From an uncultured Maribacter sp. (GTDB lineage Bacteria > Bacteroidota > Bacteroidia > Flavobacteriales > Flavobacteriaceae): 64,000 nt of DNA. This document shows positions 1,382 to 28,342 of the stretch, one piece after another. The position numbers were made by a program, and so were the translations under genes. The stretch spans positions 62,001-126,000 of the forward strand of contig CANLTE010000006.1 of the NCBI GenBank assembly GCA_947493885.1, in the 5' to 3' direction. Under the pieces are notes generated by a model. That model searched no databases and had not been told where the DNA came from. It saw only the letters and a list, made by a program, of their open reading frames with translations. Position 1 is the stretch's first letter. Every line of letters begins with the position of its first letter.

Positions 1382-3381
1382 GAAAGCTCCAACGTAATTT
1401 TTTTAACTTTTTGAATATCTGTCCCTTTTGAAATAGACTGATTTTTAACCTTACCATTGCCAATAACCTCAACCTCCAAACCTAAATTTTCAAGAATAGG
1501 AATTGCGTCCATTCCGCTCATACCTTTTACATTCGGCACAGTCTTAAATTGTTTTTGTGCGTTCACGTAATACGTTTGGTAAGATTTATCCAAATCAACA
1601 TTCTCCGTTTTAATTTCTACTTCATCTATCAATGGAGAATTCGCATATATTTTTTGTGCCACCGATTTAAATACAGGACCAGAAACATCCGCCCCGTAAT
1701 ACCCAACACTTTTATCAGGCTCGTGAATAATTACAATACAAGAATATTTAGGATCATCTGCAGGAAAGTAACCCGCAAACGAGGATATATATTTTAATTT
1801 GTTAGGGTCTTTAGAAACATAATCTTTTTGACAAGTACCTGTTTTTCCCGCCATGGAAAAATTAGGAGAATATAAACCATGACCAGTACCATGTTTTTTC
1901 TCTACCACATTTTTCATCAACTGCTTAACCTTACCTATAGTTTCCATTGAGCAGATAGAAGGATCAATAACCTCTTTATCAAATTTTTCTATTGTTCTAT
2001 TCCATTCCCTCACCTCTTTTATTAGGCGAGGTTTTACCATTTCGCCATCATTAGCAATTGCATTGTAAAATGTAAGTGTTTGCAAAGGTGTCATTGAAAC
2101 TTCGTACCCGTGAGACATCCAAGCTAGAGAAACACCAGACCACCCTTTATCACCAGGATATCTGATTACAGGTTTTCCTTCCCCCACAATAGGCAGTCCG
2201 AGCTCCACATTTAAATTCATATCTGAGAGCCTATCCACAAACTTCTTAGGCTGATCTTTATAATTATAATGAATCATTTTTGCAAAAGCCGTATTGGAAG
2301 AAAGCTCAAAGGCTTTTGATAGTGTAACCTTACCATATCCTCCCCATTTTGAATCTTTTACAACCCTATCATACACTTTAAATCTTCCGTTTTCTGTATC
2401 AAGTACAGTGCTGGTATCTATCACCTTATCTTCTAAGGCAGCAACCATACTCATTAACTTAAAAGTAGAACCTGGTTCATGAGATTCTCCTACTGCGTAA
2501 TTTAACTTCTCGTAATATTTGCCCTCTGATGTTCTTCCCAGATTTGAAATTGCCTTTACTTCACCAGTTTTTGTTTCCATCACAATTACACAACCATGAT
2601 CCGCTTTATAATATTCCAACTGCCTCAACAATGCATGATGCGCGATATCTTGTATATTAATATCAATAGTTGAAACAACATCGTAACCATCTTTAGGTTC
2701 AATAATATTGTCCAAACCAATCGGCTTCCACTGCCCTTTAGCAATTTTCTGTTTTAAACGTTTGCCTTCTACACCTCTTAAATATTGACCAAAAGCTCCC
2801 TCCAAGCCAACATTAGTTGTATGACCTTCATCATCAATCCTTTGATAACCAACACTACGCTCAGCAATTTTTCCTAATGGGTGCTCGCGAACCGTTTTTT
2901 GTTCAACAATAATACCACCCTTATAAGGTCCTTTATTAAAAAGCGGAAACTCCTTAACTGCCATGTATTGTGAGTAATCCAGGTTACGAGCAATTAGGGT
3001 ATATCTATTTTTATTGTTTTTTGCCTTTCTTAATGTTTGCTGATAGTGTGAAGAAGTTTTCCCAAACATTTTTGACAAAGCATCTGACAATGGCTTAACG
3101 TTCTCTTTAAAATTTTTATCCGAAACCGTTACTGCATCAAAACGTATAGTGTATTTAGAAACTGAAGTGGCTAAAAGACTTCCATCATCTGAATACAAAT
3201 TACCTCTGTTTGGTTCTATAGTAAACATTTTAGAAGTACGCCTTTCAGCCAAACCTCTATATTTATCGCCATCTACCATTTGTATACTAACAAGTTTAAA
3301 CAACACGACGCCAGCAAAAAGGAATAAACCCGCTGCTACGACATATAATCTTGTTAATATTTTTTTCTCGGTAACTGGCAT
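1378..3381 (-). CDS. ftsI: Penicillin-binding protein, septal transpeptidase FtsI/PBP3, with PASTA domain
   Basis: Septal peptidoglycan transpeptidase, 667 residues, anchored in the inner membrane by one N-terminal segment (about 13-33) with the catalytic part in the periplasm. Active-site motifs are in order: STFK at 305-308 (Ser305 is the acylated nucleophile), SSN at 361-363 and KTG at 513-515. The N-terminal dimerisation module lies before residue 240. The last 55 residues, starting near TVPNVKG, form a single PASTA domain, as in Bacteroidetes FtsI but unlike E. coli FtsI. The ATG directly abuts the ftsL stop, and the TGA overlaps the murE start. Assignment as division-specific rests on the dcw cluster context. 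Confidence 0.95.
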   Translation of the reverse strand: MPVTEKKILTRLYVVAAGLFLFAGVVLFKLVSIQMVDGDKYRGLAERRTSKMFTIEPNRGNLYSDDGSLLATSVSKYTIRFDAVTVSDKNFKENVKPLSDALSKMFGKTSSHYQQTLRKAKNNKNRYTLIARNLDYSQYMAVKEFPLFNKGPYKGGIIVEQKTVREHPLGKIAERSVGYQRIDDEGHTTNVGLEGAFGQYLRGVEGKRLKQKIAKGQWKPIGLDNIIEPKDGYDVVSTIDINIQDIAHHALLRQLEYYKADHGCVIVMETKTGEVKAISNLGRTSEGKYYEKLNYAVGESHEPGSTFKLMSMVAALEDKVIDTSTVLDTENGRFKVYDRVVKDSKWGGYGKVTLSKAFELSSNTAFAKMIHYNYKDQPKKFVDRLSDMNLNVELGLPIVGEGKPVIRYPGDKGWSGVSLAWMSHGYEVSMTPLQTLTFYNAIANDGEMVKPRLIKEVREWNRTIEKFDKEVIDPSICSMETIGKVKQLMKNVVEKKHGTGHGLYSPNFSMAGKTGTCQKDYVSKDPNKLKYISSFAGYFPADDPKYSCIVIIHEPDKSVGYYGADVSGPVFKSVAQKIYANSPLIDEVEIKTENVDLDKSYQTYYVNAQKQFKTVPNVKGMSGMDAIPILENLGLEVEVIGNGKVKNQSISKGTDIQKVKKITLELS

Positions 3382-24066: not shown

Positions 24067-25149
24067 TTACTGATTTAAAATTTTCTCTTGATGGTTAATA
24101 GATTCTTGATGAATAGCTTTAAACATTCTAAGCACAAATTCTTCACTTAATCCTTTAGACTCTCCTTCTAAAATCATAGCTCCTAAAATCTGATTCCATC
24201 TGTTACTTTGTAAAACCGCAACATTTTTCTCTTTTTTAAGCTTACCTATTGAATCTGAAATTTTCATACGCTTACCTAAAGATTCTATTAGCTGAGAATC
24301 AATTACATCAATCTGAGCTCTTAAATTACTCAACTCTTTCGTATAAGCCGCTTCTGAATCGTCTTCTTTTCTGATTTTTAAATCTCTCATGATTTGAACC
24401 AATTTACCAGGTGTTACTTGCTGCGCAGCATCACTCCAAGCATTATCTGGATCAAAATGAGTCTCAATCATTAATCCGTCAAAATTAAGATCTAAGGCAG
24501 TTTGAGAAACATCAAAAATCATTTCTCTATTTCCTGTAATATGAGAAGGATCACTGATTAATGGTAAATCAGGGAATTTATTTTGAAATTCAATTGCCAA
24601 TTGCCATTCCGGAATGTTTCTATACTTAGTTTTTTCGTATGTAGAAAACCCTCTATGAATAGCTCCTAATTTTTTAATTCCTGCAGTATATAAACGTTCA
24701 ATACCACCTAACCAAAGCGATAAGTCTGGATTAATAGGATTTTTTACTAAAACCACTTTATCAGTACCTTCTAAGGCATCTGCAATTTCTTGCATTATAA
24801 ACGGACTTACTGTTGATCTAGCTCCAATCCACAGTAAATCAATATCATGCTCAAGAGCTAACTCTACATGAGCTCTATTAGCTACTTCAGTTGCAGTTTT
24901 TAGACCTGTTTCTTCTTTTACTTTCTGTAACCATTTTAAACCTAAAGCACCAACCCCTTCAAAATTTCCTGGGCGGGTTCTTGGTTTCCAGATACCAGCT
25001 CTGTAATAATTTACATCGGTATCTTTTAATTCATGTGCTATTTTAAGCACTTGTTCTTCCGTTTCCGCGCTACATGGCCCTGCTATTACCAAAGGGTGAT
25101 CTAATCCTAAATCATCTAACCATGTTCTCATTTCTTTTGAATTCTCCAT
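24067..25149 (-). CDS. Bifunctional 3-deoxy-7-phosphoheptulonate synthase / chorismate mutase
   Basis: 360 residues. The N-terminal part (about 1-260) is a type I-beta DAHP synthase, the first step of aromatic synthesis: VIAGPCSAE near residue 21, YRAGIWKPRTRPG, LWIGARSTVSPF and SDPSHITGNR are its blocks. The C-terminal 90 residues (from LRAQIDVIDSQLIESLGKRM) form an AroQ-type chorismate mutase. The fusion links entry to the pathway with the Phe/Tyr branch point. Last gene of the operon, 4 bp after tyrA. Confidence 0.93.
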   Translation of the reverse strand: MENSKEMRTWLDDLGLDHPLVIAGPCSAETEEQVLKIAHELKDTDVNYYRAGIWKPRTRPGNFEGVGALGLKWLQKVKEETGLKTATEVANRAHVELALEHDIDLLWIGARSTVSPFIMQEIADALEGTDKVVLVKNPINPDLSLWLGGIERLYTAGIKKLGAIHRGFSTYEKTKYRNIPEWQLAIEFQNKFPDLPLISDPSHITGNREMIFDVSQTALDLNFDGLMIETHFDPDNAWSDAAQQVTPGKLVQIMRDLKIRKEDDSEAAYTKELSNLRAQIDVIDSQLIESLGKRMKISDSIGKLKKEKNVAVLQSNRWNQILGAMILEGESKGLSEEFVLRMFKAIHQESINHQEKILNQ

Positions 25150-25153
25150 TGTA

Positions 25154-26023
25154 CTACTTTTCTTTTTGCTTGTTTTGTGGTATTCCGTTTAATATTTCTT
25201 TAATCTTATTTGTATTATTCATTTCATTGTAAATGCCATCATAATTATTACTTTCAAGCATTTTTTTAAATTCGGTAAGGTTTTTTATATATCCCTCTAA
25301 GGTCTCAATAACATTTTCTTTATTCTGTTCAAAAATCGGTGTCCACATGGCTGGTGAACTTTTTGCTAAACGCACCGTGCTCTCAAAACCACTCCCCGCC
25401 ATGTCAAAAATATCACGTTCATTTTTTTCTTTTTCAATTACCGTTTTTCCTAACATAAAAGAGCTTATGTGTGATAAATGAGATACATACGCTATGTGCT
25501 TGTCATGTGCTTCAGGGTTCATATATCTAATTCGCATTCCTAACTCACGAAAAAGTTCTAAAGCTCTTTCTTGCAGTTTAAATGCTGTTTTTTCTACTTC
25601 ACAAATTATATTGGTTTTACCGTCATACAATCCATATACTGCTGCTGAAGGTCCAGAAAACTCAGTACCCGAAATAGGGTGACATGCCAAAAAGTTTCTG
25701 CGTTTGGTATGATTTTCTACAGCCTTACATATTTGTCCTTTTGTTGAACCAGCATCAAAAACCACACAATCATCATTAACGGCATCCAATATTTTAGGTA
25801 ATTCGGCTATCATAGCATCAACAGGTATACTAACGATTACGATATTTGCAATTGACAGTTGCTCATAACTCGATTTTTCGTCTATAATCTCCAAAACAAC
25901 TGCTTCGTCTAAATTAGCACTGCTGGCATCTATTCCATAAATAGTGGCTTCTGGTTTCAGACGTTTAATGTCTTTAACCATAGAACCTCCTATTAGTCCA
26001 ACTCCAATTACAAATACATTCAT
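25154..26023 (-). CDS. tyrA: Prephenate dehydrogenase
   Basis: 289 residues; oxidises prephenate to 4-hydroxyphenylpyruvate for tyrosine. The NAD site is GVGLIGGSMV at about 7-16, and CHPISGTEFSGP (near 115-126) and HDKHIAYVSHLSHISSF carry the prephenate-binding His residues. No fused mutase or ACT domain, in keeping with the mutase being fused to DAHP synthase in the next gene. Confidence 0.93.
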   Translation of the reverse strand: MNVFVIGVGLIGGSMVKDIKRLKPEATIYGIDASSANLDEAVVLEIIDEKSSYEQLSIANIVIVSIPVDAMIAELPKILDAVNDDCVVFDAGSTKGQICKAVENHTKRRNFLACHPISGTEFSGPSAAVYGLYDGKTNIICEVEKTAFKLQERALELFRELGMRIRYMNPEAHDKHIAYVSHLSHISSFMLGKTVIEKEKNERDIFDMAGSGFESTVRLAKSSPAMWTPIFEQNKENVIETLEGYIKNLTEFKKMLESNNYDGIYNEMNNTNKIKEILNGIPQNKQKEK

Positions 26024-26073: not shown

Positions 26074-27219
26074 TTAAAACCTTGTTATGGCTTCTTTAAT
26101 TTTTTCTTCTTTTACACAAAGAGAAAAGCGTATATAACCCTCTCCTTTATTTCCAAAAATAGTTCCAGGAGCTATAAATATATTTTTATCGTATAAAACT
26201 TCATTTACAAATTCCTCGGAAGATAATGCTCCTTCTGGTAATTTCGCCCAAACAAACATCCCCACTGCATTATTATCGTACGTACAGTTTAATTTATCCG
26301 CCAGTTGAAACATTAAATTTCTCCTTGTCTTATAAATTTCATTTAGGTTTTGAAACCATTTATCACCACTATTTAAAGCCTCAATTGCGCCCTTTTGAAT
26401 ACCATAAAACATTCCAGAGTCCATATTGCTTTTTACTTTTAAAATGGCATTTATTAAATCGGCGTTCCCCATAACCATTCCAACTCTCCAGCCAGCCATA
26501 TTAAAAGTTTTACTTAACGAGTTTAATTCCAAAACATTATCCTTAGAACCGTTAATAGAAAGCATACTAGTTGGACTCTCATTTAAAACAAAACTATAGG
26601 GATTATCATTCACTAAAATAATATCGTGTCTTTTTGCAAAATTAACCAGCTGCCCCAATTGTTGCGTACTAGCAGTAGCACCTGTAGGCATATGCGGATA
26701 ACCTGTCCACATTAACTTAACTTTAGATAAATTATCCTTTTCTAAAGCTTCCAAATCAGGAAACCAGTTATTCTTATCTTCCAATTGATACTCGCGGGTC
26801 ACAGCTCCTACCAATTTAGTAACCGATGAATATGTTGGGTATCCTGGATTAGGAATTAATACCTCATCACCTTCATTTAAAAAAGCCATGCTTATATGCA
26901 TAATCCCTTCTTTAGAACCCATTAAAGGTAATATCTCATTCACAGGATTTAACGAAACACTGTACTTTAACTCATAAAAGTTCGCAATAGCTTCTCTTAG
27001 TTCTGGTAAACCCTGATAACTTTGATATTGATGAGCACCAACGTCAGTTACGGCCTGTTTAATTGCATCGATTACAGTTTGTGAAGGAGCTAAATCAGGA
27101 CTACCAATTCCCATATTAATAATTGGTTTGCCTTCTGCAACTAACCCTCTTACTTCTCTTAGTTTTTTTGAGAAGTAATATTCTTCAACTGTTTTTAATC
27201 TATCAGCTGTAGTAATCAT
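26074..27219 (-). CDS. Class I aminotransferase, probably aromatic
   Basis: 381-residue PLP-dependent fold-type I aminotransferase. The cofactor lysine lies in SLSKTFNMAGWRVGM (about residue 240), NPGYPTY and NDNPYSFV are other cofactor-site blocks, and RFSLC near the C-terminus holds the Arg that binds the substrate carboxylate. Position between pheA and tyrA suggests transamination of phenylpyruvate and 4-hydroxyphenylpyruvate; by sequence alone it could also use aspartate or other substrates. The 4 bp overlap with pheA suggests coupling. Confidence 0.88.
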   Translation of the reverse strand: MITTADRLKTVEEYYFSKKLREVRGLVAEGKPIINMGIGSPDLAPSQTVIDAIKQAVTDVGAHQYQSYQGLPELREAIANFYELKYSVSLNPVNEILPLMGSKEGIMHISMAFLNEGDEVLIPNPGYPTYSSVTKLVGAVTREYQLEDKNNWFPDLEALEKDNLSKVKLMWTGYPHMPTGATASTQQLGQLVNFAKRHDIILVNDNPYSFVLNESPTSMLSINGSKDNVLELNSLSKTFNMAGWRVGMVMGNADLINAILKVKSNMDSGMFYGIQKGAIEALNSGDKWFQNLNEIYKTRRNLMFQLADKLNCTYDNNAVGMFVWAKLPEGALSSEEFVNEVLYDKNIFIAPGTIFGNKGEGYIRFSLCVKEEKIKEAITRF

Positions 27220-28043
27220 ATTCTAGCATTTTTATACTCTCCCAAAACCTTAAAATCTTCTGACATAATACCCAAAAGAGATTTCGCTTTTGCAAAATTT
27301 TCATAATCCTCAAAAGTAACATCAACAAAGAACGCATACTTCCAAGGTTTTTCAATAATAGGCAATGATTGAATTTTAGTTAAATTCAAATTACAATCGC
27401 TCATGACATTCAAAACCGTTGCAAGGCTTCCTCTTTTATGATCAGTCACAAACCTAATTGAAGCCTTGTTAATTTCTTCTTTAGGTAACTCTTTATTTAC
27501 CGTTTTAACAATAATAAATCTTGTTGAATTGTTTTTAATAGTTTGTATATCTGTTGCAATAATATCCAAATCATACAAATCCGCTGCTACTTTAGGTGCT
27601 ATTGCTGCTATGTTTTTTAATTGTTTTTCTTGAATTTGTTTTGCAGTTTCTGCAGTATCCACATCTTCAACCATTTTAATATGTGGATAGCCTCTTAAAA
27701 ACTCTTTACATTGCAATAACGCCATAGGGTGTGACCTAACCTCATCAATATCTTCAATTTTTTGTCCCTTTAACACCATTAAATTGTGGTGAATGTTTAG
27801 ATAATGCTCTCCAATTATATGTAGATTATTGTGATAAATTAGTGCGTAATTTGGAATAATGGATCCCGCTATAGAATTCTCAATAGCCATTATACCCTTG
27901 TCTGCGGATTTATTTAAAAGTTTATCCACAAGAATATCAAAAGATAAACATTCCACTAAATCCACTTCATTACCAAAATAGTCGTTTGCTACTTGATGAT
28001 GGTTTGATCCTTTTATTCCCTGTATTGCTAATTTTAAGCTCAT
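27216..28043 (-). CDS. pheA: Prephenate dehydratase
   Basis: 275 residues. The catalytic PDT domain (1-185) includes AIENSIAGSI near residue 54 and NSTRFIIV near 165-172, with the Thr of TRF catalytic. A C-terminal ACT domain (about 190-275) includes RGSLATVLNVMSDCNLNLTK. The motif usually written ESRP, which binds regulatory Phe, reads QSLP here, so Phe feedback may be weakened. First structural gene of the operon; it lies 55 bp behind the attenuator terminator. Confidence 0.94.
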   Translation of the reverse strand: MSLKLAIQGIKGSNHHQVANDYFGNEVDLVECLSFDILVDKLLNKSADKGIMAIENSIAGSIIPNYALIYHNNLHIIGEHYLNIHHNLMVLKGQKIEDIDEVRSHPMALLQCKEFLRGYPHIKMVEDVDTAETAKQIQEKQLKNIAAIAPKVAADLYDLDIIATDIQTIKNNSTRFIIVKTVNKELPKEEINKASIRFVTDHKRGSLATVLNVMSDCNLNLTKIQSLPIIEKPWKYAFFVDVTFEDYENFAKAKSLLGIMSEDFKVLGEYKNARI

Positions 28044-28098: not shown

Positions 28099-28130
28099 CA
28101 AAAAAAAAGTTCCGATTTTCTCGGAACTTT
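28099..28130 (-). terminator. Attenuator terminator in the aromatic operon leader
   Basis: Read on the minus strand, AAAGTTCCGA (28130-28121) pairs with TCGGAACTTT (28115-28106) around GAAAA, followed by a run of nine U's (28108-28100). This is a strong intrinsic terminator lying between the Phe/Tyr-rich leader frame and pheA. The bases AGUUCCG of its 5' arm (28128-28122) can instead pair with CGGGACU inside the leader frame (28169-28163), which would prevent termination. Confidence 0.85.
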
Positions 28131-28155
28131 ACTCTAATTATATTTTTAAAATATG

Positions 28156-28227
28156 CTAGAACAGTCCCGTACCTCTTTTAAAAAAGAAGTAAAAAGTAAA
28201 ACCGTTCCAGAAATATTGTTTTGTCAT
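28156..28227 (-). CDS. Phe/Tyr-rich leader peptide of the pheA operon
   Basis: A 23-codon frame from ATG (28227-28225) to TAG (28158-28156). Residues 1-16 read MTKQYFWNGFTFYFFF, followed by KRGTGLF: seven Phe, two Tyr and one Trp, with six aromatic codons among codons 10-16. UGGAAC (28209-28204) can pair with GUUCUA (28162-28157), CGGGACU (28169-28163) with the terminator's 5' arm, and the terminator arms with each other. A ribosome stalled at codons 10-16 would leave CGGGACU free to form the antiterminator; one reaching the stop codon would cover it. This is the classical attenuation design. Expression of the frame is inferred. Confidence 0.8.
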   Translation of the reverse strand: MTKQYFWNGFTFYFFFKRGTGLF

Positions 28228-28317
28228 TTTTTATAAAAACTTGGGCTAATGTACTAATTAAATTTAAATACTGCTTAATAGTCCCTTTTTTTTTCATTTT
28301 TTTTAGTGTTAGTTATA

Positions 28318-28342
28318 TTTCTTGCTAATAATTAGCAAGAAA
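28318..28342. promoter_or_regulatory. 25-bp perfect palindrome upstream of the pheA leader
   Basis: TTTCTTGCTAAT (28318-28329), a central A, and ATTAGCAAGAAA (28331-28342) form a perfect inverted repeat with 12-bp arms. It lies 90 bp before the leader ATG and about 50 bp before the candidate gldA promoter element. The size and symmetry suggest a dimeric regulator site. It has no U-tract and no gene ends into it, so a terminator is unlikely. Confidence 0.5.

Follow-up and report, generated by a model that had tools for sequence, protein, structure and literature searches.

An uncultured Maribacter sp. very probably controls its operon for phenylalanine and tyrosine synthesis by ribosome-mediated transcription attenuation, with charged tRNA-Phe and tRNA-Tyr as the signals sensed. 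The attenuator would lie on the minus strand of the window, by which we mean the whole stretch of 64,000 nt that was analysed, and would control the genes pheA-aminotransferase-tyrA-DAHPS/CM. The initial annotation had read the leader as an attenuator, and the conserved aromatic codons along with the alternative 2:3 and 3:4 pairings support this reading at the level of sequence.

The leader and the operon behind it

The features referred to below are listed here in the coordinates of the window.

28246..28253, minus strand: candidate promoter box of the -7 type, TACATTAG, 18 nt ahead of the leader start
28156..28227, minus strand: leader peptide ORF MTKQYFWNGFTFYFFFKRGTGLF, ATG at 28227, TAG ending at 28156, 23 codons plus TAG
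28201..28210, minus strand: segment 1, 5' arm of the protector helix, includes UGGAAC (from fold and alignment)
28180..28200, minus strand: proposed regulatory codons 10-16 (F T F Y F F F), from the minus-strand reading and the coding-constraint test
28156..28169, minus strand: segment 2; its CGGGACU (28169-28163) is the partner of segment 3 and shares bases with the 3' arm of helix 1:2 (28165-28156)
28122..28128, minus strand: segment 3, AGUUCCG, part of the terminator 5' arm and the antiterminator 3' arm
28100..28130, minus strand: putative intrinsic terminator, a hairpin (segments 3:4) followed by nine T (from sequence, fold and relatives)
27216..28043, minus strand: pheA, prephenate dehydratase, first gene of the operon (ORF; PF00800, E 3e-57)
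26074..27219, minus strand: aminotransferase class I/II (ORF; PF00155)
25154..26023, minus strand: tyrA, prephenate dehydrogenase (ORF; PF02153 and PF20463)
24067..25149, minus strand: DAHP synthase with a chorismate mutase domain (ORF; PF00793 and PF01817)

A 23-codon minus-strand frame with 7 Phe, 2 Tyr and 1 Trp, six of its aromatic codons lying in codons 10-16, had been described from the window, and the leader MTKQYFWNGFTFYFFFKRGTGLF agrees with that description base for base. The strong terminator with nine U's predicted 25 nt beyond the stop codon is borne out by the letters as well: the hairpin AAAGTTCCGAGAAAATCGGAAC starts 25 nt past the leader stop, and the nine T after it end at 28100. 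The RNA from 28228 to 28095 has a predicted folding energy of -36.9 kcal/mol (z = -5.45), which was equalled by 0 of 200 shuffles, and its lowest-energy fold contains 1:2 and 3:4 together.

No Shine-Dalgarno-like sequence is seen upstream of the leader ATG on the minus strand of the window. The motif TANNTT(A/T)G, which we take to resemble the Bacteroidota -7 promoter consensus, was sought in the 75 nt ahead of the leader start and found in 76 of 80 relatives, at a distance of 16-21 nt and in 47 of them at 18 nt. Another frame, opened by an ATG at 28297 and running for 39 codons, was considered and rejected; it overlaps the leader in a different frame and has the candidate promoter inside it.

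The initial annotation held that the downstream operon makes Phe and Tyr, and Pfam assigns its four ORFs to enzymes leading to both. The divergent gene upstream, called gldA in the initial annotation, is, also by Pfam, an ABC-transporter ATPase. Between this gene and the leader promoter lies a perfect 25-base palindrome, TTTCTTGCTAATTATTAGCAAGAAA (28318-28342), and among 233 loci an exact copy beyond this genome was seen solely in the nearest relative (L003, L084).

The search with PheA gave 139 loci, the best 80 of which were examined (PheA identity at least 76%); keeping only these 80 skews the close set towards similar PheA. The closest named record among them is an uncultured Maribacter with a PheA 98% identical. 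All of the 80, Maribacter luteus and Zobellia barbeyronii among them, carry a leader and a terminator. Their leaders are 22-23 codons long and one of them starts with GTG; the terminator starts 21-28 nt past the leader stop in 80/80. In 76/80 pheA is followed by the same three genes in unchanged order, fewer of them being visible in the fetched stretch of the other 4.

Coding constraint, alternative helices and the proposed switch

Across the window and its 80 close relatives the leader frame is stop-free through 22 codons in 81/81 aligned sequences, and the two alternative frames of the region have a stop in 76/81 and 68/81. Among single-base differences between nearest neighbours, 63 of the 82 within codons 10-16 are synonymous and 19 non-synonymous, so that the synonymous share is 77% against 17% expected. 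Codon 7 is always aromatic, being solely TGG, TTT or TAT in 81/81 leaders; Phe stands at codons 12 and 14 in 81/81 and at codon 15 in 80/81 (one three-base gap), and a Tyr is found inside codons 10-16 in 81/81. Phe and Tyr are both present in every one of the 81 leaders and Trp in 55. The alignment of the relatives thus upholds the conserved cluster of aromatic codons that the annotation had asked about, and judged by these substitutions the cluster is under coding constraint. This constraint and the open frame speak for translation of the leader.

A conserved peptide raises the question of whether the peptide itself is the sensor, arresting the ribosome on free Phe or Tyr instead of responding to scarce charged tRNA. 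TnaC is an arrest peptide of this type. The conserved aromatic positions would suit such sensing, as would KRGTGLF, the fairly well conserved end of the peptide in the close clade, but that end is also RNA segment 2, and in codons 17-23, which contain segment 2, the synonymous share is 30% with 30% expected. This pattern fits conservation of the pairing rather than of the peptide. Moreover, Phe, Tyr and Trp interchange at codon 7, and beyond the clade a comparison by eye shows peptides alike only in their richness in Phe and Tyr, with subgroups sharing endings such as ETLYV. We therefore regard sensing by the nascent peptide as improbable and keep to attenuation through charged tRNA.

The helices were examined in alignment A1, with 81 sequences (the window and the best 80 of 139 loci) and 500 shuffles. 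For the antiterminator, both CGGGACU and AGUUCCG are found where the annotation had paired them, and 97.7% of cells in 2:3 are paired, with at most 58.4% in slid controls. Double changes occur in 3/7 pairs of 2:3, which 11/500 shuffles reach; the double-change cells number 6, and some slid controls give 7 and 11. We consider the covariation of 2:3 inside the close clade modest. The terminator helix 3:4 (ten pairs) has 96.9% of cells paired and double changes in 4/10 pairs (reached by 25/500 shuffles). Its double-change cells number 52 against 19.8 in shuffles (0/500), 41 of the 52 at the loop-closing pair, and its number of pair types is no higher than in shuffles (173/500). In a few sequences segments 2, 3 and 4 change together, at alignment columns 67/114/131 and 65/116/129, which matches the co-change that mutually exclusive helices of a switch require.

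The protector helix 1:2 (19 pairs) has 90.4% of cells paired, and 88.0% in the segment 1 stretch 28201..28210. Its double-change cells number 36 against 23.2 in shuffles (0/500). Double changes are found in 4/19 pairs, which 426/500 shuffles match, and because this number is no better than in shuffles 1:2 is weakly supported. The pairing of the UGGAAC arm proposed in the annotation is seen in the lowest-energy fold of the leader RNA and is weak across the relatives. As to the suggested check on conservation of the three helices, 2:3 and 3:4 are kept with some compensating changes, and 1:2 is less well conserved.

In the order of events that we infer, from start site and translation through stalling and its kinetics to termination and the response to Phe and Tyr, transcription would start shortly 5' of the leader, and a ribosome would initiate at the leader ATG without a Shine-Dalgarno-like sequence and trail RNA polymerase. 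With Phe or Tyr short, the ribosome would stall in codons 10-16, opening segment 1 and leaving segment 2 free. The free segment 2 would pair with segment 3 once this is made, and polymerase would pass before 3:4 replaces 2:3, so that the operon is read. With Phe and Tyr plentiful, the ribosome at the stop codon would cover segment 2, 3:4 would form, and transcription would probably terminate near 28100.

Predicted folding during synthesis fits this scheme. The runs used an assumed ribosome footprint, either before segment 4 is made or with the complete RNA. Before segment 4 is made, a stall at codons 12-15 gives a probability of 2:3 of 0.97-0.99 in the window and one at codon 16 gives 0.64; this probability is at least 0.5 in 80/81 sequences at codons 12-15 and in 71/81 at codon 16. 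When the ribosome has reached the stop codon, the probability of 2:3 is 0.00, and that of 3:4 in the complete RNA is 0.95 for the window (median 1.00). In runs without a ribosome, 2:3 has a probability of 0.10 in the window and a median of 0.92 among the sequences before segment 4 is made, and the terminator forms in the complete RNA (1.00). At equilibrium the complete RNA with a stalled ribosome has a probability of 3:4 of 0.98-1.00 in the window (median 0.96-1.00). Since the terminator is still favoured there, antitermination would have to be kinetic; 2:3 would form first and hold until polymerase has passed.

The distance from the T run to the pheA start is 56 nt in the window and 10-98 nt in other relatives, and 2-3 nt in many Muricauda/Allomuricauda-type loci (L020, L036, L047 and other Allomuricauda-type loci, at about 2995-3000). 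The hairpin could therefore also hinder pheA translation in the Allomuricauda-type loci. That it mainly occludes the pheA translation start, and not transcription, would agree with these short distances, but it sits poorly with the longer ones in the window and the other relatives and with a hairpin and U-run that have the form of an intrinsic terminator; we hold this to be slightly less probable still than sensing by the peptide.

A known RNA family at the leader was ruled out: Rfam gave no match up to E 10 at 28,100-28,230 of the window and none at the gathering threshold in the 13 loci searched, RF01692 included. A small-molecule aptamer, a T-box or a protein-binding attenuator with an incidental ORF would account for the strong structure ahead of a biosynthetic operon, but is hardly credible given this lack of an Rfam match, the coding constraint on the ORF and the poor conservation, in the close-clade alignment, of the spacer between the leader stop and the terminator. 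We return to the ribosome-mediated attenuator for the remainder.

Spread of the leader and other leaders in the genome

A covariance model (R1) was built from the close clade and used to search 149 genomes of the family at E 0.001. It matches one site in the genome of the window and matches 84/149 family genomes, 83 of these once. There was no R1 match at this threshold in 65/149, and the model misses diverged leaders, as G013, G026, G045 and G051 carry leaders despite this. A second R1 match in G450 was rejected as a further leader copy; its position is between two convergent genes, and we take it for a terminator matched by chance.

Two further sets were collected: a diverged set of 70 upstream regions from 83 matching genomes (13 of the lowest-scoring left out), and a wider set of 70 of 258 matching genomes (67 new, 3 duplicates), the rest having mostly less similar PheA. 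In the 70 regions of the diverged set the leaders vary in peptide, for instance MNTLNHTYYNWFYFFFSEKKETLYV and MNHLSTYFNFWYFYFKDRTGIAM, yet keep the layout. Among 50 diverged leaders, Phe and Tyr are each present in 50/50 and Trp in 30/50. Pairs of segments 2:3 found in them include CGAGAC:GTCTCG, GAGCGGGA:TCCCGCTT, AGAGCGGTC:GACCGCTTT and CCGGGAT:ATCCCGG.

To 49 of the 70 loci an arm-permutation test was applied, leaving out 15 near relatives, 5 leaderless loci and 1 without a found terminator. The terminator 5' arm scored against its own leader gave a mean of 17.7; permuted arms gave 14.1 and shuffled leaders averaged 10.8, and 0 of 10,000 permutations reached the observed value. As a sequence-based argument for 2:3 this test between genera is stronger than the one within the close clade.

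For the wider distribution, 137 pheA upstream regions (L083-L223 minus L153-L156, the window's own being L083) were scanned for an ORF having 5 or more aromatic residues in a stretch of 8 codons, followed by a terminator within 65 nt. An aromatic leader with terminator was found in 120/137: in 92/97 regions of Flavobacteriales, the window's own included, and in 28/40 of other Bacteroidota, that is, 24/31 in other orders of the class and 4/9 elsewhere in the phylum. It should be noted that order and class membership were taken from kinship labels. The antisense strand gave 1/137 and dinucleotide shuffles 0/1,370. A first version of the scan had found 104/137, with 2/137 on the antisense strand at 5 or more aromatics and 7/137 at 4 or more; the stem rule was later relaxed and the T run tightened, giving the 120/137. 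The shuffles, the antisense strand and the relatives rule out a chance origin of the arrangement. Judging from these upstream regions, the leader arrangement is widely kept in Flavobacteriales and beyond.

The scan finds no leader in 5/97 regions of Flavobacteriales and in 12/40 of the other PheA-bearing regions. One of the Flavobacteriales misses (L120) has only 138 nt ahead of the PheA match. L205 was missed by the scan and has a leader visible by eye, and L191 and L207 matched the first scan and were missed by the final one. Since a long frame extends as far as pheA in L183-L185, and nearly as far in L186, pheA is probably not the first gene at these loci. A separate leader type, NNRFYFSNSFYFFF or similar, was observed in L159, L160, L163, L166, L168, L170 and L174, which share one genus label (g94); its terminator arm is mostly of the AATCCTGAT type.

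Further amino-acid leaders are seen in the same genome. Ahead of hisG (L153, about 1198-1320) lies a His-rich leader, MRNTNMHHHFHTGSQAR, with a terminator 27 nt past its stop and an uncontrolled 7 bp match between the terminator 5' arm and the leader or spacer. An Ile/Val-rich leader, MKTKSVLINVIVIVSSRR, lies ahead of ilvD (L154, about 1087-1210) with a terminator 22 nt past its stop; the ilvD ATG is 312 nt past the leader start, and the arm matches of his and ilv are 7-8 bp, likewise uncontrolled. Ahead of a trpE-like gene (L155, 2143-2026, minus strand) there is a Trp leader, MRNKRTNTWWWSNLRKTS, followed by a hairpin. A likely terminator is seen in the fold of that region. The trp leader of this genome scores 51.3 bits against Rfam RF01692 (Bacteroid-trp), with a cut-off of 49, and the cut-off is passed in 17 of the 40 relatives searched.

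Relation to known attenuators

Ribosome-mediated attenuation of amino-acid operons has reportedly been predicted by comparative analysis in work by Vitreschak et al. from 2004, the abstract of which is said to name Bacteroidetes/Chlorobi, and in work by Lopatovskaya et al. from 2010. Rfam RF01692, the Bacteroidota tryptophan leader, comes from Weinberg et al. 2010 (PMC2864571), which lists a motif called 'pheA' for Actinobacteria. Like the Phe/Tyr leader, RF01692 is an RNA of this phylum that encodes a leader peptide and precedes an amino-acid gene. Its codons are for Trp, however, and its gene is trpE; neither it nor any other Rfam family matches the Phe/Tyr leader.

For Flavobacterium psychrophilum, passages of PMC9723704 (2021) report strong clues that amino-acid operons are attenuated through leader peptides. 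They also describe structured 5' elements ahead of pheA and hisG, which have no Rfam hits and recur in other Flavobacteriaceae genera. The pheA element described there precedes the same gene, in the same family, as the leader of the window. For pheA, Section 19 of that paper presents neither a peptide nor helices nor covariation; more may be found in the supplement. The paper also states that translation initiation in Bacteroidota relies on sequence properties other than Shine-Dalgarno. Passages of PMC7366714 report short ORFs in Bacteroides 5' UTRs that are reminiscent of leader peptides. The Phe/Tyr leader is absent from the passages of PMC4833913 and PMC8305728 that were matched. Among the matches listed, supplements aside, PMC9723704 alone points to this leader. 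The annotation's remark that few descriptions exist in Bacteroidetes thus makes the leader look newer than it is, with RF01692 matching this genome and a pheA element reported in PMC9723704. In broad terms, both the mechanism and its occurrence in the phylum were already known from RF01692, PMC9723704 and PMC7366714.

As far as the literature matches show, what is added here is the Phe/Tyr peptide together with its covariation and breadth. The leader likely answers how Phe and Tyr synthesis is regulated in a whole order, and it could supply an RNA family unmatched by Rfam 15. Further, we speculate that leader-peptide attenuation is a principal and old control of amino-acid synthesis across Bacteroidota, with the Phe and Tyr sensor standing beside the His, Trp and Ile/Val leaders, a proposal for and against which we find the balance about even. 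If it is true, initiation without a Shine-Dalgarno site implies that ribosome and RNA polymerase must be closely timed in Bacteroidota. The leader offers a conserved single-site reporter with which to test whether Bacteroidota ribosomes closely follow RNA polymerase. Attenuation of this kind is classical and has been noticed before; the proposed dual sensing and the breadth in a phylum not known for Shine-Dalgarno sites make the leader a useful test bed.

The classical case is the E. coli pheL-pheA attenuator, in which a Phe-rich leader peptide and the logic of 1:2, 2:3 and 3:4 helices precede pheA. The leader of the window is like it in its richness in Phe, in the proposed logic of alternative helices and in having pheA behind it. 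It differs from the E. coli system in that each of the 131 leaders counted here has Tyr codons together with Phe codons, and in that the operon of the window additionally carries tyrA and the DAHP synthase.
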